Shown here: piece by piece, positions 27,702 to 54,160 of the stretch
Numbering within the stretch: the first letter of the stretch is position 1
Layout of the letters: every line of letters begins with the position of its first letter
Origin: a bacterium (Candidatus Blackallbacteria) CG13_big_fil_rev_8_21_14_2_50_49_14
Lineage (GTDB): Bacteria > Cyanobacteriota > Sericytochromatia > UBA7694
Length of the DNA stretch: 64,000 bases
Direction: 5' to 3'
Assembly (NCBI GenBank): GCA_002783405.1
Contig: PFGG01000065.1
Coordinates: 62,001-126,000 of the forward strand
Notes under the pieces: generated by a model
Told to the model about the DNA's origin: nothing
The model's database searches: none
The model's input: only the letters and a program-made list of their open reading frames with translations
Program-made: the position numbers and the translations under genes

Positions 27702-28307
27702 TTAGAAGCCGAGCAAATCGCGAATGCTAATTCCAAGGGTCAATTGAGCTTTGACATATTCACGTTTGCTCATCAAACCATCCATATTGGTGTCTACGCG
27801 CGGATCACGGTTGGCCAGGTAATAGCGACCCACCGCTCCGATTTCAGCCACATTCAGAAAACGATCCGCATTTGCATCCTTTTGCTTGAAAGCCACTTCA
27901 AGGCGCTCTTTGCGGTATTTGGCATATTCAGGAAGAGTAACCCGCCCATCATAATTGCGATCAGCATTCTGAAATTCAAAGGGATTTAAGGTTGCAACTG
28001 TAAATTCACCGTGGTTGAGAGTGCCATCGCCGCTCAAATCGACTTGACGGAATTCACGCTCCACCAGGTTATAGGTTTCACCCATATGCATGCTATAGGC
28101 CATATTACTAAACATTTGGCCTACAGAATCACCAAACTTTTTAAAGAACCCAGCTTCCATGGGGGGATTGGCAGCCTCAGAAAGCTGAACACTGTCCTGT
28201 GGCATGGCGGTTGTGCTGGTCGTTGTTGTTGAAGCGGCAGCAGGGGCTGTAGAAGAACTTCCAAACCAGGAGGCAATGGGATTGCTGGATTGAACAGATA
28301 AAGACAT
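27702..28307 (-). CDS. EF-hand protein with four calcium-binding loops
   Basis: 201 aa, no signal peptide. A disordered Ser/Thr/Ala-rich N-terminus (about 1-45) precedes four EF-hand loops: DLSGDGTLNHGEF, DRNYDGRVTLPEY, DANADRFLNVAEI and DTNMDGLMSKREY. Loops 1, 2 and 4 have acidic residues at canonical positions; loop 3 lacks the conserved Gly. This is calmodulin-like and suggests Ca2+ binding, though dockerin-like structural use is possible. GAGGTA lies 8 nt before the ATG. A second EF-hand protein is 1.3 kb away (29601). Confidence 0.85.
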   Translation of the reverse strand: MSLSVQSSNPIASWFGSSSTAPAAASTTTTSTTAMPQDSVQLSEAANPPMEAGFFKKFGDSVGQMFSNMAYSMHMGETYNLVEREFRQVDLSGDGTLNHGEFTVATLNPFEFQNADRNYDGRVTLPEYAKYRKERLEVAFKQKDANADRFLNVAEIGAVGRYYLANRDPRVDTNMDGLMSKREYVKAQLTLGISIRDLLGF

Positions 28308-31551: not shown

Positions 31552-32358
31552 TCAGTCCGATCTCACTCGCACAGGGATTGGCTGATGGAACATGCGCTGA
31601 TAGGCCTCAGCGACCCGATCATCATAGGCACGTTGTTCAGAACCCCCTGCCGCATTGTAACGGCCTAAAACCCCCCACATCCCCATGGTGGCTGCGTTTT
31701 GTCGCCCGCCATCTGCACGATCCATCACAATTCGGGCATAGGCCGTCGAGGTCCAGATATTGTCGTGAATATTATTGCGATTGGCTCGACTTTGATCGAT
31801 CCGTCTAAAAATGGCCTGGATCTCAGGTCTTTCAAACTGGGCACGGATATCTGGGTCTGGATAGTGCTGACGCTCCCCTGGCCCCCGGTAGGTGGGGTCA
31901 TAGCTCAAGCGACGGGTTTCATTGATGGCACTGTCGGTCAATTGGCCCAAGCCCCCTGCTCCGGTATGGCTGCGGGCATCAACGTCAAAACCACCGCTTT
32001 CATGGGCCAGAATCGCCAGCAACATTTTGGGATCAACTTGAAACGTGCGGCAGGCAGCATCGACATGGGTGGCAATTTCGCGGGCCTGGGCTTCTGTCGC
32101 CTGATTATCAGGGTAGGCTCGAATCGCATCATACAAAACTTTGACCTGGGGAGACATGGCAGGGGCTGGAAAATTGACATCCCCCCGGCTCAAGTTGGCG
32201 GTACGCCGAGGCTGTGCACTGTTTTGATCACGGGGAGGGGCAGGTTGTCTGGGCTGGGTTTGTGGAGCAGGTGTTCCCTGACGCCGACGGGGAGGAGTGG
32301 GTGCCCCCGTAAACAGGCTCTGCAAATTGCGTGAAATATTGCTAAAAAAATCTCCCAT
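31552..32358 (-). CDS. Lysozyme-like lytic transglycosylase
   Basis: 268 aa. A Pro/Gln/Arg-rich N-terminus (about 15-60), then a lysozyme-fold domain (about 75-255) with catalytic Glu in ILAHESGG, GAGGLGQLTDSA and the NIWTSTAYARIVMDR and VLGRYNAAGG motifs of soluble lytic transglycosylases. These cleave the glycan strand of peptidoglycan to 1,6-anhydro ends. There is no classical signal peptide, so export may use another route or it may act in a secretion or cell-wall complex. GGAGG precedes the ATG. Convergent with lysA. Confidence 0.82.
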   Translation of the reverse strand: MGDFFSNISRNLQSLFTGAPTPPRRRQGTPAPQTQPRQPAPPRDQNSAQPRRTANLSRGDVNFPAPAMSPQVKVLYDAIRAYPDNQATEAQAREIATHVDAACRTFQVDPKMLLAILAHESGGFDVDARSHTGAGGLGQLTDSAINETRRLSYDPTYRGPGERQHYPDPDIRAQFERPEIQAIFRRIDQSRANRNNIHDNIWTSTAYARIVMDRADGGRQNAATMGMWGVLGRYNAAGGSEQRAYDDRVAEAYQRMFHQPIPVRVRSD

Positions 32359-45537: not shown

Positions 45538-46764
45538 TTAATAAGCTTGGGGGGCTGCCTGCGTCACAGCAGCCAAGACCTGCATCTGTTCCTGACCTGA
45601 AATCAAGCCACGGGCGGCCGCATCTGCGGCTGCCTGGTCGGCATTGTCAAACAGAACCATGCCTTGAAAGCGGGCATCAGAGGCCTGAGAACCCGTCACA
45701 TTGTGAATATACACAGCCTGCACCCGGCCCGGAAACTCAAGTGCAATTTCACGATAGACCTCAGGATCCTTTTCGCCACTGTCTCCGACCAAGACGAAGC
45801 TGCGATTGGGATAGGTTTCAAACAGCGTCCGAATTTTACCCAGTTTATAATTAAACTGCTCAGTCGGATTGTCCCGACCCGCTCCCAACCCCATATACTT
45901 GAGGTCCATGGCTCCTTCGGGAAAACCATGCAGGGTTAAAAAAGTCTCCAAACGCGGGGCAATATTTAAGGGGCTGCCAGAAACATAATTCACATCGCCA
46001 TCGATCTTGCCGTCGGCATGCCGATCCAGTGCCGTCAGAAATTCAGCCATTCCTGGCACCGGCTGCTGGGTATAGGGGTTTTTAAATAAAAGCGTTTCCA
46101 TCATTTTGGTTTTATTCACAGCGTGGGAAACCTGTATCGTATCGTCAATATCCGAAATCACGCCACGACTCATTTCAGCAGGGTTCTGAAGCACCACTTT
46201 GCCCAAACTTGGCAGCGAATAATAGTGTTTCTGGCCTGGAACCAACTGGGCTTGAACAGGCAAATAGCCTGTTTCCTGAAGGCCCGGAGCAGAAAGTTTA
46301 AGCTCAAAAAAGCCTTCATGATCTGTTTTTACACGGTGAATTTGGCCCAAAACAGTAATATCAACCCAAAGATTTTGCTTGTCTTCAGCTTTTAACTGAT
46401 GGGCTGTACGGCGCAAATTATCCAGCCAATTGTCTGAAACAGAAGGATCAGAGGCTTCAGCCTCAATCACCCGCCCTTTCACTGAAAAACTTTGCGGCGT
46501 ACCATAGCTGGTATACAGGGGAATATCCAATTTGGTGCCACGCATCGAGGAAAAATTTACATAGTGTGTTTCTGAAGCAGGAGCCGCATGGGGAACACTC
46601 CCTGTCGCCAGATTCATCGTTTGAAATTGATCCTGAGAAAAAATCTCTTGAGGGGACTTGAGTTGGATACTTGAATTCAAACCTGTATTGGCACCGGCAG
46701 AAAGTGCTGAAGCAGGGGGTTGAAGATCGGGCAAGCTCGGTACGGAGAGCGGTTTCAGATTCAT
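45538..46764 (-). CDS. App1-type phosphatase (DUF2183)
   Basis: 408 aa from the ATG at 46764 (AAGG 7 nt upstream); longer frames are unlikely. The N-terminus (1-60) is Ser/Pro/Ala-rich and disordered. A beta-domain (about 65-200) is followed by a HAD-like catalytic domain (about 205-385) with GVISDIDDTIQ, NYVSGSPLN and FVLVGDSGEKDPEVY. In yeast App1 this domain is a phosphatidate phosphatase; in bacteria its substrate is open. No signal peptide. TATAAT (46801-46796) is a probable -10. Confidence 0.85.
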   Translation of the reverse strand: MNLKPLSVPSLPDLQPPASALSAGANTGLNSSIQLKSPQEIFSQDQFQTMNLATGSVPHAAPASETHYVNFSSMRGTKLDIPLYTSYGTPQSFSVKGRVIEAEASDPSVSDNWLDNLRRTAHQLKAEDKQNLWVDITVLGQIHRVKTDHEGFFELKLSAPGLQETGYLPVQAQLVPGQKHYYSLPSLGKVVLQNPAEMSRGVISDIDDTIQVSHAVNKTKMMETLLFKNPYTQQPVPGMAEFLTALDRHADGKIDGDVNYVSGSPLNIAPRLETFLTLHGFPEGAMDLKYMGLGAGRDNPTEQFNYKLGKIRTLFETYPNRSFVLVGDSGEKDPEVYREIALEFPGRVQAVYIHNVTGSQASDARFQGMVLFDNADQAAADAAARGLISGQEQMQVLAAVTQAAPQAY

Positions 46765-46795
46765 AATTTGCCTTTTTGGACTGTCAGATAGCTTG

Positions 46796-46801
46796 ATTAT
46801 A
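46796..46801 (-). promoter_or_regulatory. -10 box of the App1-like gene
   Basis: GCTATAATCAAG on the minus strand, 32 bases before the ATG at 46764. No clear -35. Confidence 0.4.
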
Positions 46802-46865
46802 GCAGGCCAAAAGTGTTTACTTGCCTTATGCTGTGAACTCAAATCCAAACAGAAAGTCTTTAAAA

Positions 46866-50312: not shown

Positions 50313-51275
50313 ATGGATCTTTCAGCACTTTCTAAGATCTCATCCAAAAAAACGCAGAATATGCAAGATGAGCGTCAAAAGCGATTTGACAGGCTCTATC
50401 GTATGGGCGCAGAATATCTGAAACGAGCAAAAAAAACGGATTTCAGTGATCGTTCTTTGGTCAAAAAAGCGGGAATCTGTTTCAGTCAGGCGATTGAAAA
50501 TAATCGCAGAGATCCCCGTCCTTTGGTCAAATTGGGCTATATCTCCACTGTTTTTCGAGACACAAAATTGGCAACCCGCTATTTAAATGAGGCTTTGCGA
50601 CTGGACCCAGAGAACAAGGACGCAAAAAAACTCTTGGCACATATTGAAAAACAGTCCACCCAAGCAATTAAAAATTTGAAAAAGGACAAGGGGCTGAGCT
50701 TACAAAAGGTTCAAAAACTTTCTGAAGCCGCCCCCGTTACAGGCAAAGCCTTTTATCTCCAAACCCAGGAACTGATACTGACTCAAATTCGCGAATCCTT
50801 TGAGCGGATGCAAGGCATTCAACCCACTTTGGTGCCGATCAACCTGCAAAAATTTGAAGAAATTCATCAACAGCTTGAAACCAATTATGAAGAGCTCAAT
50901 CAAAAGCTCGATCAACTGGAAGAAGAGGGATTTGATATTGAGCCCCTTGAAAGAGACTTTCAGAAATTAGAAGTCAATCTCAATCTGATGGAGGATACCT
51001 GCAAGCTTTCACGCAAAATGATTGCCCTGAAAAAATCTATTCAGGAAGAAACCAGCAAGGTTCAAGACTGGAATCAGGTTCTGGAGATGCATCCTGCCCC
51101 AGAAAAAAAAGCTGAAATTGACAGCCATTTTGATGAAATGATGGATCGCAGCGATGAACTCGCTGATGAATTGGATGAACTGGAAGGCTCTGGTTTTGAT
51201 ATCCAAGCACTGATGAAATATTACAACCAGTTTTCAGCGGCATGTCATCGTCTTGAAAAACTCCTGGAAGATTAA
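50313..51275 (+). CDS. TPR and coiled-coil protein, unknown
   Basis: 320 aa, no signal peptide. TPR-like helices lie at about 55-110 (LVKLGYISTVFRDTKLATRYLNEAL). The second half is a long coiled coil containing a repeated motif: LEEEGFDIEPL (near 205) and LEGSGFDIQAL (near 290), each followed by a helix. No known family. The Shine-Dalgarno (GGGGGA) is far from the ATG, so translation may be modest. First of three plus-strand genes that end with a trigger-factor-like gene. Confidence 0.72.
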   Translation: MDLSALSKISSKKTQNMQDERQKRFDRLYRMGAEYLKRAKKTDFSDRSLVKKAGICFSQAIENNRRDPRPLVKLGYISTVFRDTKLATRYLNEALRLDPENKDAKKLLAHIEKQSTQAIKNLKKDKGLSLQKVQKLSEAAPVTGKAFYLQTQELILTQIRESFERMQGIQPTLVPINLQKFEEIHQQLETNYEELNQKLDQLEEEGFDIEPLERDFQKLEVNLNLMEDTCKLSRKMIALKKSIQEETSKVQDWNQVLEMHPAPEKKAEIDSHFDEMMDRSDELADELDELEGSGFDIQALMKYYNQFSAACHRLEKLLED

Positions 51276-51361
51276 GTTATAAAATTGAAATATTTGGGTA
51301 TAAAGAAAAACAGCATTGTATTTGAAGCGCCTGTGAGTCAGAAAAAAGAGAGGTTCAGTGT

Positions 51362-52885
51362 ATGCAAGGATTAGGTGGTGGTAGCTCTATGATTCGGGGA
51401 ACAGGGCCCTTAATGGCTCCCAGTTCCATTGCCCCTACACGTACAGCGACGCCAACAGAACAACCAACCAAGACAACAACCCCCAACCCTTCTGCTTTTG
51501 AACCCAAAGCGACCCAAGTCATTACCACCGACAAAGAAGCCATTTGCTCTGCGGTAGACAATTGTCCTCAACCCGATGGTTCAACCCCTGAAATTCCAGA
51601 TGAAAGCACAGGTTTTGAACAAGAATCGGTAGAAAGCTTGGATCAGGGTTTTGAAGCTGAGACAGGCGAAGTCGCTGAAAGCGGCGAATCAAATGAAACC
51701 GAAGCCACTGATGAATCAGGCGGGTCAGACGAAACCGAAGCCACCGATGAATCAGGCGGGTCAGACGAAACCGAAGCCACTGATGAATCAGGCGGGTCAG
51801 ATGAAACCGAAAGCAGCAGTGGAACAAGCGAGTCGGGAGGAACTGAAGCGGCTCAGACAGATAAGGATGGAAACGAAGCTCCCTCCGTAGCCGCTCATGC
51901 GCCCCAAGATCTCTCACTTTCAAAAATGGCAGCCATAGGTGGAAAAATAGGCACAGGGGCAGCTAAAATCAATGAAGCTGTACAAGCTGTGCGCACACAA
52001 AATCAGGGAAAAACCCCCACAGCCTCCGCTACACCGGGTGGTGCAGCCAAAGTCAATTCTCATTTGACCACAGCGAAAAACATCGGCACTTTATTGGATG
52101 GGGATGCCAATGCCGCCGATATCAAAGCGGGTTCCGAGCTTTTGGGTGATGCCTCAAAAGCACTTCAGAATTCTACACGTGCCGCACAAGTCGGACAGGT
52201 ACTTGGACAAGCAGCGAAGGTGGGTACGCTTGTCGGTTCAACCGTCAATCTTGTAACGACGGTTTCGAACGGCCAATTACAAGCCAATATCGCCAAAGCA
52301 GCAGAAGATCCCTCGGCTCAAAATCTCGGTGCGGTTGCAAATGACAGCAAAGCCCTGACCACAGCAGTTCAAGGCGTCACCAATGGTGCCAAGGGCGCTC
52401 AGGCGACCCTCGATGCAGTTCACGCGGCTTCAACCGCAAGAACCGCAGCCACCACAACGGGTCGCGTAGCTCTGCGCACAGCAGAAACGGGTGCCCACGT
52501 CGCAGCAAGTGCTAGCCGTGCTGTGGGCCGTCTGGCTCCAGGCGTCAATGTTGCCATGGCCGTTGTGGACACAGCTGTCGCGGCCACCGACATCGCCAAA
52601 GCGGTGCAAAATCCCACCACAGATAATGTTGTAAACGCAGCATTTAGCAGTATTACCGCAGCGGGCTCGATTGCTGCGGCTTCTAATGTTCCGGTGGTAT
52701 CTCAAGTGGGCGCCGCCGTAGCAACCGTTTCTGATGCCGCCAAATTGGTCTACAACAATCGGCATGAAATTGCGGCTGCCGCTGATAAGGCTGCCACGAC
52801 AGTCACCAACGCAGCCAGCAATGCCGTCAGTGCCGCCAGCAGTGCTGCCAGCAGCGCTTATACCTGGGCTAAGAGCTGGTTTTAA
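51362..52885 (+). CDS. Low-complexity Ala/Thr-rich protein with acidic repeats
   Basis: 507 aa, no signal peptide. The first 110 residues are disordered (Pro/Thr-rich). Then come three perfect or near-perfect 12-residue units (ETEATDESGGSD) and a partial fourth (about 112-155). The rest is built of Ala, Thr, Val and Asn with helical amphipathic stretches and hydrophobic blocks (TLVGSTVNLVTTV, SSITAAGSIAAASNVP), ending in SAASSAYTWAKSWF. It resembles surface or secreted low-complexity proteins; no family found. The stop is 3 nt from the ATG of the next gene. Confidence 0.75.
   Translation: MQGLGGGSSMIRGTGPLMAPSSIAPTRTATPTEQPTKTTTPNPSAFEPKATQVITTDKEAICSAVDNCPQPDGSTPEIPDESTGFEQESVESLDQGFEAETGEVAESGESNETEATDESGGSDETEATDESGGSDETEATDESGGSDETESSSGTSESGGTEAAQTDKDGNEAPSVAAHAPQDLSLSKMAAIGGKIGTGAAKINEAVQAVRTQNQGKTPTASATPGGAAKVNSHLTTAKNIGTLLDGDANAADIKAGSELLGDASKALQNSTRAAQVGQVLGQAAKVGTLVGSTVNLVTTVSNGQLQANIAKAAEDPSAQNLGAVANDSKALTTAVQGVTNGAKGAQATLDAVHAASTARTAATTTGRVALRTAETGAHVAASASRAVGRLAPGVNVAMAVVDTAVAATDIAKAVQNPTTDNVVNAAFSSITAAGSIAAASNVPVVSQVGAAVATVSDAAKLVYNNRHEIAAAADKAATTVTNAASNAVSAASSAASSAYTWAKSWF
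51695..51802 (+). repeat. 36-nt coding tandem repeat
   Basis: Three 36-base units (starting 51695, 51731 and 51767) encode ETEATDESGGSD; they differ only at a few silent positions, so the expansion is recent. A partial fourth unit follows. Confidence 0.92.
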
Positions 52886-52888
52886 GCC

Positions 52889-54160
52889 ATGAAATACGCA
52901 GTTAAAGAAAAATCAAACGCCTGGATAGATGTCTCCTTTCAGCTATCAAACGCTGAACTGGCCATGAAACAAAGGCAAATTGAAACCCGCTTGCCACAAA
53001 AACCCAGCCCAGATGAGCTTAATAAATTGGTTCGTCAAACGAGCATGCGTGATGCGGTACAAGCCTATTTAAAAAAGGAAAGTCTGACCACTTGGGGGCT
53101 TCCTCGCTATAAAGTTGTACAGGAAGCCACTGAGTCTGGTCTAAATTTTATTTCCAGGCTCTCCTTGCTTCCAGAAATCAAACTGCCAAACTATGAAAAC
53201 CTACAGTTAGAAGTCAATCCTGTGCCCATGCCCACCGAAGAAGGCATGCAAGCAGAACTGTTTCAGTTGAAATATTTGGTCTCTAACCCTGTAGAAGTTA
53301 CGCGCGGTATTCAGTGGGGCGATATTGTAGAATTGGGTTTTAGCGCCTTTGACAGCGAAAATCAGCCCATTCCCTTGAGCACCCGTGAACGTCAGTCCAT
53401 GATTATCAACGGTGCACTGTTTTACCCTGAATTTTTAGAACAGATTTTGGGCCTGAAAGCAGGAGAAAAATTTGAATTTCAATTCAAAGCCCCTGCTGAT
53501 TATTTTCATCCACCTGCTCAGAACCAGGCAGTTACCTACCGCGGAATGGTTTATCAGGTGATGGAACCCCAGCATGTGCAATCTGATCAAGAGTTTCTCG
53601 AACGCGTGGGTGAGTTTGAAAATATGGACGCCCTTTACGCACAAATTGCCGAAGATGTCTTGATTCACAATCAAAATGCCTGGCAGAAAGAATTGCGTCA
53701 AGCCGTGGTTCAGTTGCTCAATCAAAATACAGAAGTAACATTTTCTGAAGAACTCTTGCAATCTGAACTGCGCTCAGAGTGGGAAAGACTGGAGCGGGAT
53801 CCTTTAATCGCATTGGGATACGCCGAAACCATACTGGAACAATCCTGGCTGGCTTGGCAAAGTTTGCCCCCTCTCAAAGAACAAACTAAAAATAAGCTCA
53901 AAAACAGTTTGATTCTGTATCAAATCGTTAAAGAACAAAATCTCACCGTAGATCCCAGTGAGGTGATAGCGCTCATGATGGCCACGGCTGATACTTTCGG
54001 TGGAGACAGTCCTGAAGCCTTGTTTATGGAATTAAAACGAAGTAAAAAGCTCGATTCTCTCGTAGCGCAGTTTGAATCTGAAAAAGCTGTCGACTACCTC
54101 ATGGGTCGGTTAACGGTTATTTGTCAGGGAGAAGTTTTGATTTCACCTCAAGCGGAATAA
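52889..54160 (+). CDS. Divergent trigger-factor-like chaperone lacking the ribosome-docking loop
   Basis: 423 aa. The middle (about 140-235) aligns with the FKBP-type domain of trigger factor: WGDIVELGFSAF, FYPEFLEQILGLKAGEKFEF and FHPPAQNQAVTYRGMVYQV. The last 180 residues are helical like the chaperone domain. In the N-terminal domain the loop G-F-R-x-G-K-x-P, which binds ribosomal protein L23, is missing; that place reads PQKPSPDELNKL. It is therefore probably not a general ribosome-bound trigger factor. It is 3 nt downstream of the low-complexity protein gene and may fold or hold that product (inference). Confidence 0.72.
   Translation: MKYAVKEKSNAWIDVSFQLSNAELAMKQRQIETRLPQKPSPDELNKLVRQTSMRDAVQAYLKKESLTTWGLPRYKVVQEATESGLNFISRLSLLPEIKLPNYENLQLEVNPVPMPTEEGMQAELFQLKYLVSNPVEVTRGIQWGDIVELGFSAFDSENQPIPLSTRERQSMIINGALFYPEFLEQILGLKAGEKFEFQFKAPADYFHPPAQNQAVTYRGMVYQVMEPQHVQSDQEFLERVGEFENMDALYAQIAEDVLIHNQNAWQKELRQAVVQLLNQNTEVTFSEELLQSELRSEWERLERDPLIALGYAETILEQSWLAWQSLPPLKEQTKNKLKNSLILYQIVKEQNLTVDPSEVIALMMATADTFGGDSPEALFMELKRSKKLDSLVAQFESEKAVDYLMGRLTVICQGEVLISPQAE

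Follow-up and report, generated by a model that had tools for sequence, protein, structure and literature searches.

Trigger factor paralogs lacking the ribosome-docking loop as probable dedicated chaperones of the proteins encoded just upstream in one family of Sericytochromatia

Trigger factor (TF) is a universal ribosome chaperone and, in the textbook view, a single-copy, ribosome-bound generalist. What role, then, might be played by a TF-like protein that lacks the ribosome-binding loop and is encoded directly behind a low-complexity protein? This question is raised by a 64,000-nucleotide stretch of DNA (the window) from a genome of the Sericytochromatia (Cyanobacteriota), a lineage of non-photosynthetic relatives of cyanobacteria. 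Three genes lie head to tail on the plus strand of the window. The first (50313-51275) encodes a TPR/coiled-coil protein of 320 aa, identified from the open reading frame (ORF) list, Pfam, a structure model, and a family profile. The second (51362-52885) encodes an Ala/Ser/Thr-rich, low-complexity protein of 507 aa, recognized by ORF list and composition and referred to here as the client. The third (52889-54160) encodes the TF-like protein of 423 aa, which comprises a degenerate N-domain, a PPIase-like domain, and TF C-terminal arms. The ORF coordinates confirm the 3-nt spacing of the last two genes given in the first-pass annotation, as the client stop codon TAA is followed by GCC and then by the ATG of the TF-like gene. 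The same annotation had called the client repeat-bearing and of low complexity, which agrees with an overall Ala content of 20% and a 36-nt tandem repeat (51695-51811, plus strand; 3.2 copies of the 12-aa unit ETEATDESGGSD) in its acidic linker. The repeat separates an S/T/P-rich N-terminus from an Ala/Gly-rich C-terminal half, and the protein ends in an aromatic tail, SSAASSAYTWAKSWF (52838-52882, plus strand), with a Trp within the last 15 residues. The upstream protein was likewise correctly described as a coiled-coil TPR protein, since it combines TPR-like units with a long helical C-terminal half.

The 423-aa protein had been credited with both the FKBP and the chaperone domains of TF. 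The chaperone domain was recovered by Pfam (Trigger_C, 4.9e-13; Trigger_N, 8.5e-6), and the FKBP domain, for which no Pfam match was obtained, is supported by the domain order of the structure model. The TIGR00115 (tig) HMM matched residues 48-404 (2e-50) with a score of 171.8 bits, under the equivalog cut-off of 180.2 bits. Structure prediction with AlphaFold yielded a TF fold with the domains ordered as in TF (pLDDT 87), and the best PDB matches of this model in Foldseek were E. coli TF (1w26, E 7e-22), other solved TFs, and chloroplast TIG1. The model of the TPR protein (pLDDT 91) matched solved structures in the PDB with its TPR units only. Alignment and model agree with the earlier claim that the L23-binding loop, GFRxGKxP, is absent from the TF-like protein: helices 1 and 2 are joined by a six-residue linker (residues 35-40; 52991-53008, plus strand), and the docking loop is deleted together with flanking helix residues of canonical TF. 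It is this motif and its flanking helices that mediate the binding of TF to the ribosome (PMC9527764).

The window genome was then found to encode five Trigger_C proteins, one canonical tig and four TF-like copies. The canonical gene, located on contig C11, has the sequence GFRKGKVP, which rules out the gene at 52889 as the sole trigger factor of the genome; a normal tig elsewhere had been named as a point to check. A survey of 17 other genomes of the same class identified TF-like copies in three (two, one, and one copies), each of which also has an ordinary tig and all of which belong to the GTDB family of the window genome. One tig or none was found in the remaining genomes, with the exception of a marginal second match (22.5 bits) in one of them (G008). 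TF-like genes are known, in sum, from four genomes of draft quality in one GTDB family. In a tree of the eight TF-like sequences and 13 ordinary TFs, all eight formed one clade (100/100). The docking motif in the form GFRxGxxP is present in 13/13 ordinary TFs vs 0/8 TF-like sequences, and in the copy from G003 the whole N-domain is gone and the gene starts at the stop codon of the client. The TF-like sequences evolve fast, and their reading frames are intact.

In all eight loci, spread over the four genomes, the TF-like gene lies directly 3' of a low-complexity client gene on the same strand, with gaps of 3, 9, -1, -1, 14, 11, 0, and -13 nt. With a normal tig present and the pair recurring in this way, genomics backs the original suggestion of a dedicated chaperone and its client. 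A genome of the same genus as the window genome (G001, recorded as Candidatus Sericytochromatia bacterium MAG_89) encodes a second client-type protein downstream of its TF-like gene in addition to the one upstream, resulting in a set of nine clients. These proteins are amphipathic and Ala-rich, have S/T/P-rich, acid-poor N-termini, and are almost devoid of Cys, and sequence analysis of the nine revealed no strong transmembrane segment. A Trp occurs in the last 15 residues of 9/9 of these clients vs 0/9 clients from loci of a second type, described below, in which the third gene encodes a YbjN-like protein. The last 15 residues contain 13 of the 20 Trp residues in the nine TF-type clients. None of 20,000 within-sequence shuffles attained the observed value; the resulting p-value is optimistic because the tail was spotted before testing and four of the nine clients are near relatives. 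Alignments among the more divergent, low-complexity clients are poor (16-20% identity), and the client family is therefore partly defined by position, composition, and tail.

No Pfam or NCBIfam domain was found above cut-off in any client. Obligate pairing with translational coupling and a hydrophobic, Gly/Ala-rich C-terminal domain would also be expected of a toxin/antitoxin-like pair, in which a membrane-active client harmful to its own cell is neutralized by the TF-like protein until release, and toxin-antitoxin modules that contain chaperones exist (PMC5105189). We nonetheless regard this reading as very improbable, given that no client has a Pfam toxin domain, that the third partner belongs to a TPR family rather than being an antitoxin, and that such a reading largely reduces to that of a secretion chaperone. 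To our knowledge, no neutralizing role of TF has been reported.

The third gene of the module proved to be less constant than the pair. Joint occurrence of all three genes, which the first-pass annotation had put forward as a check, holds for the TF-like gene and its client at 8/8 loci; a gene of the TPR family adjoins only six of the eight, on either strand, and at the other two loci no TPR neighbor is present within the stretch read. A profile built from 27 members retrieved 32 matches from the window genome, so that the family numbers about 32 copies, and full-length matches in a phylum-wide sample were confined to the GTDB family of the window genome. A scan for further relatives with conserved peptides found no usable stretch in a six-row TPR alignment, and that with a two-row alignment returned only MAG_89. 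At 19 of 28 TPR loci checked, a neighbor within 350 bp or less has an S/T/P/Q/N/A/G-rich, acid-poor, non-Sec N-terminus. By this loose definition, such N-termini are found in 20/50 genes adjoining TPR genes vs 53/289 elsewhere (Fisher p 0.0013), and the S/T/P-rich, acid-poor type is common to many TPR-paired proteins of unrelated sequence. The scaffold role initially proposed for the TPR protein is unsupported; the roughly 32 paralogs mostly each stand beside a different S/T/P/Q-rich protein, and judged by this gene context the family looks like one of cognate adaptors or chaperones.

Several additional features of TPR loci and of proteins with similar N-termini were recorded. On contig C25 of G001 (L095:2666-5301), several TPR/coiled-coil paralogs are arranged in tandem with no obvious client in between. 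Large TPR-paired proteins (~625-1181 aa) with P/Q/S/T-rich N-termini, several of them mutually related, are encoded at L090:2297-5842, L091:3580-5502, L092:4728-6644, L096:3509-6175, L097:4075-6021, L108:1589-3853, L166, L168, L169, and L173; several have a hydrophobic hairpin and a YbjN-like neighbor, and none matched Pfam or NCBIfam above cut-off. Within the window, the products of 27702-28307 and 31552-32358 (both minus strand) lack a Sec signal and begin with a strongly S/T/P-rich, acid-poor segment, making them candidates for the client class. An S/T/P-rich N-terminus is also found on an APP1-type phosphatidate phosphatase (PF09949, 2.7e-43; 45538-46848, minus strand; L045:11589-12791), the domain of which is best known from eukaryotes, and the G001 ortholog of this gene is oriented divergently to the TPR gene of a TF-like module.

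What the TF-like protein might act on is indicated by loci at which the client is shortened. Two genomes, G002 and G004, have sister genes of the window TPR gene (tree support 100/100; 36% identity), each followed by a gene for a protein of 167-170 aa in which similarity to the window client is limited to the first ~95 client residues (E 9e-8) and both the Ala-rich domain and the tail are missing. No TF-like gene follows the shortened client in G002 or G004, the latter being the weaker case as its contig ends soon afterwards. The TF-like gene thus tracks the C-terminal domain of the client, and the TPR gene tracks the N-terminal part. At approximately ten other TPR loci, the same order of TPR gene, client, and third gene is observed with a YbjN-like protein (~175-209 aa) in third place, and among the TPR loci compared a TF-like and a YbjN-like gene were never found together. 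Pfam YbjN matched 5 of 11 YbjN-like members (best 2.5e-4), and a search of PDB sequences with a YbjN-like profile gave no meaningful match. YbjN proteins have the fold of class I type III chaperones, and those from elsewhere have an unproven role in secretion (PMC5398634). From these sister loci, the TF-like protein appears to take the place that a secretion-chaperone-like protein has elsewhere.

Loss of the docking loop in every copy, the presence of a normal tig, obligate coupled pairing, and a Trp tail in all clients are established at the level of gene sequence, as is the finding that loci whose client has no Ala-rich C-terminal domain have no TF-like gene either. Could the TF-like genes instead be degenerate tig copies that act as general chaperones off the ribosome, their neighborhood being incidental? 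The fast evolution of these sequences would fit, and E. coli TF also works off the ribosome. Intact frames, well-modeled arms and overall fold, the same kind of gene upstream of 8/8 copies, and the tracking of the client C-terminal domain all argue against such decay, and we consider it highly unlikely. We favor the reading that the TF-like proteins are probably monophyletic TF paralogs that have left the ribosome and act post-translationally, each as a chaperone dedicated to the product of the gene just upstream. In the mechanism that we propose, the TF-like protein would use its TF arms to bind the Ala/Gly-rich amphipathic C-terminal domain of the client right after synthesis, with the aromatic tail as its likely recognition point, and would thereby keep this domain from aggregating. 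The TPR/coiled-coil protein may take the N-terminal part, and the two together could keep the client soluble until a subsequent step, with export the likeliest, and would themselves remain behind.

Export is favored mainly because a YbjN-like protein, from a family with a type III secretion chaperone fold, fills the third slot in sister loci. In the clients themselves, the composition of the N-terminus is the one feature that points to export. Alternatively, the client may never leave the cell, and the three proteins may build an intracellular or membrane-surface assembly, such as a granule coat, a phasin-like layer, or a scaffold, with the TF-like protein as its assembly chaperone. The amphipathic, Ala-rich clients without a strong transmembrane segment would suit such an assembly, as Ala/Ser-rich helices resemble lipid-surface coat proteins and TPR proteins are frequent scaffolds. 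This alternative seems to us rather unlikely, as S/T/P-rich, acid-poor N-termini recur in many other, unrelated TPR-paired proteins and the third slot is elsewhere held by the secretion-chaperone-fold family.

If the clients are exported, which machine might be involved? The window genome (G000) encodes two flagellar-type export sets (FlhA, FliF, and FlhB, two each), with the paired export genes on contigs C55, C57, C64, C80, and C11; G008, from the same class, likewise has paired sets. A search of the window genome for a non-flagellar type III system identified none: each FliF gene has the length of a flagellar one, with no short SctJ-type FliF, and no type III secretin was seen, the two secretin genes being one of PilQ type and one not matched to a type. 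An injectisome-type system was accordingly rejected as the partner. A contractile (eCIS) system was also rejected, as the sheath gene examined lies in a prophage-like cluster and G001 has the modules without a sheath. Tentatively, and with less confidence than in the dedicated-chaperone role itself, we propose an undescribed export or delivery system in this Sericytochromatia family. It would handle dozens of substrates, each with its own TPR/coiled-coil chaperone and with a second one of interchangeable type: a YbjN-like protein, or a TF that has lost its ribosome dock and recognizes a Trp tag at the C-terminus. One of the two flagellar-type exporters, or an as yet uncharacterized apparatus, would serve as its machine. 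As a separate observation, contig C80 encodes a 413-aa protein (185314-186555; L064:7314-8555, minus strand) that fuses an excisionase/MerR-like helix-turn-helix to the FlhA cytoplasmic domain (PF00771 columns 309-653, 166 bits). Its gene adjoins fliP-fliR-flhB, partial FHIPEP copies akin to it occur in G001, and the fusion is possibly a regulator that reads flagellar export chaperones.

A literature search for TF-like or duplicated TFs returned chiefly chloroplast Tig2, a form consisting of the ribosome domain only and hence a mirror image of the proteins described here. A TF in the role of a dedicated type III or flagellar chaperone was not described in the papers searched, and no paper joining trigger factor with Sericytochromatia was found, which is weak evidence as most subscription papers lie outside the search. 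The gene arrangements suggest that single proteins have come to be served by private versions of a general chaperone. If so, TF duplication, loss of the ribosome grip, and gene-by-gene pairing would show a route from a general to a specific chaperone, and structural studies would gain naturally occurring chaperone-client pairs in which a short tail is the candidate recognition element. Beyond these loci, the TPR family as a whole suggests that this little-known sister lineage of cyanobacteria has many unstudied proteins that are paired with chaperones and possibly exported.

Compared with known systems, the TF-like proteins share with trigger factor (PF05697/PF05698, TIGR00115) the domain order and fold of N-domain, PPIase domain, and C-terminal arms, but differ in lacking GFRxGKxP in 8/8 cases, in the sub-equivalog score of the window copy, in being multi-copy, and in being coupled each to one client gene. 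Like SurA, which is periplasmic and has no ribosome domain, they would use TF-type substrate arms off the ribosome; unlike SurA, they have no signal peptide, each has a single client gene as its partner, and a TF N-domain and an FKBP-type domain are retained. SurA prefers aromatic-rich segments. Its arms are similar to those of TF (PMC9527764). Chloroplast Tig2 is likewise a second, specialized TF form besides the normal one (PMC11731035), but it is essentially a ribosome-binding domain that has lost the chaperone domains, whereas the TF-like proteins have kept the chaperone domains and lost the ribosome loop. Finally, the dedicated chaperones of type III and flagellar export (class I CesT-like, class II TPR, FliS/FliT) resemble the present set in that the gene for a small cognate chaperone adjoins its substrate gene and in that TPR and YbjN/class-I-like folds occupy the same gene slot. 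The set departs from them in its longer TPR family, the helical C-terminal half of which is without match among solved structures, and in a genome with only two flagellar sets and no injectisome found.
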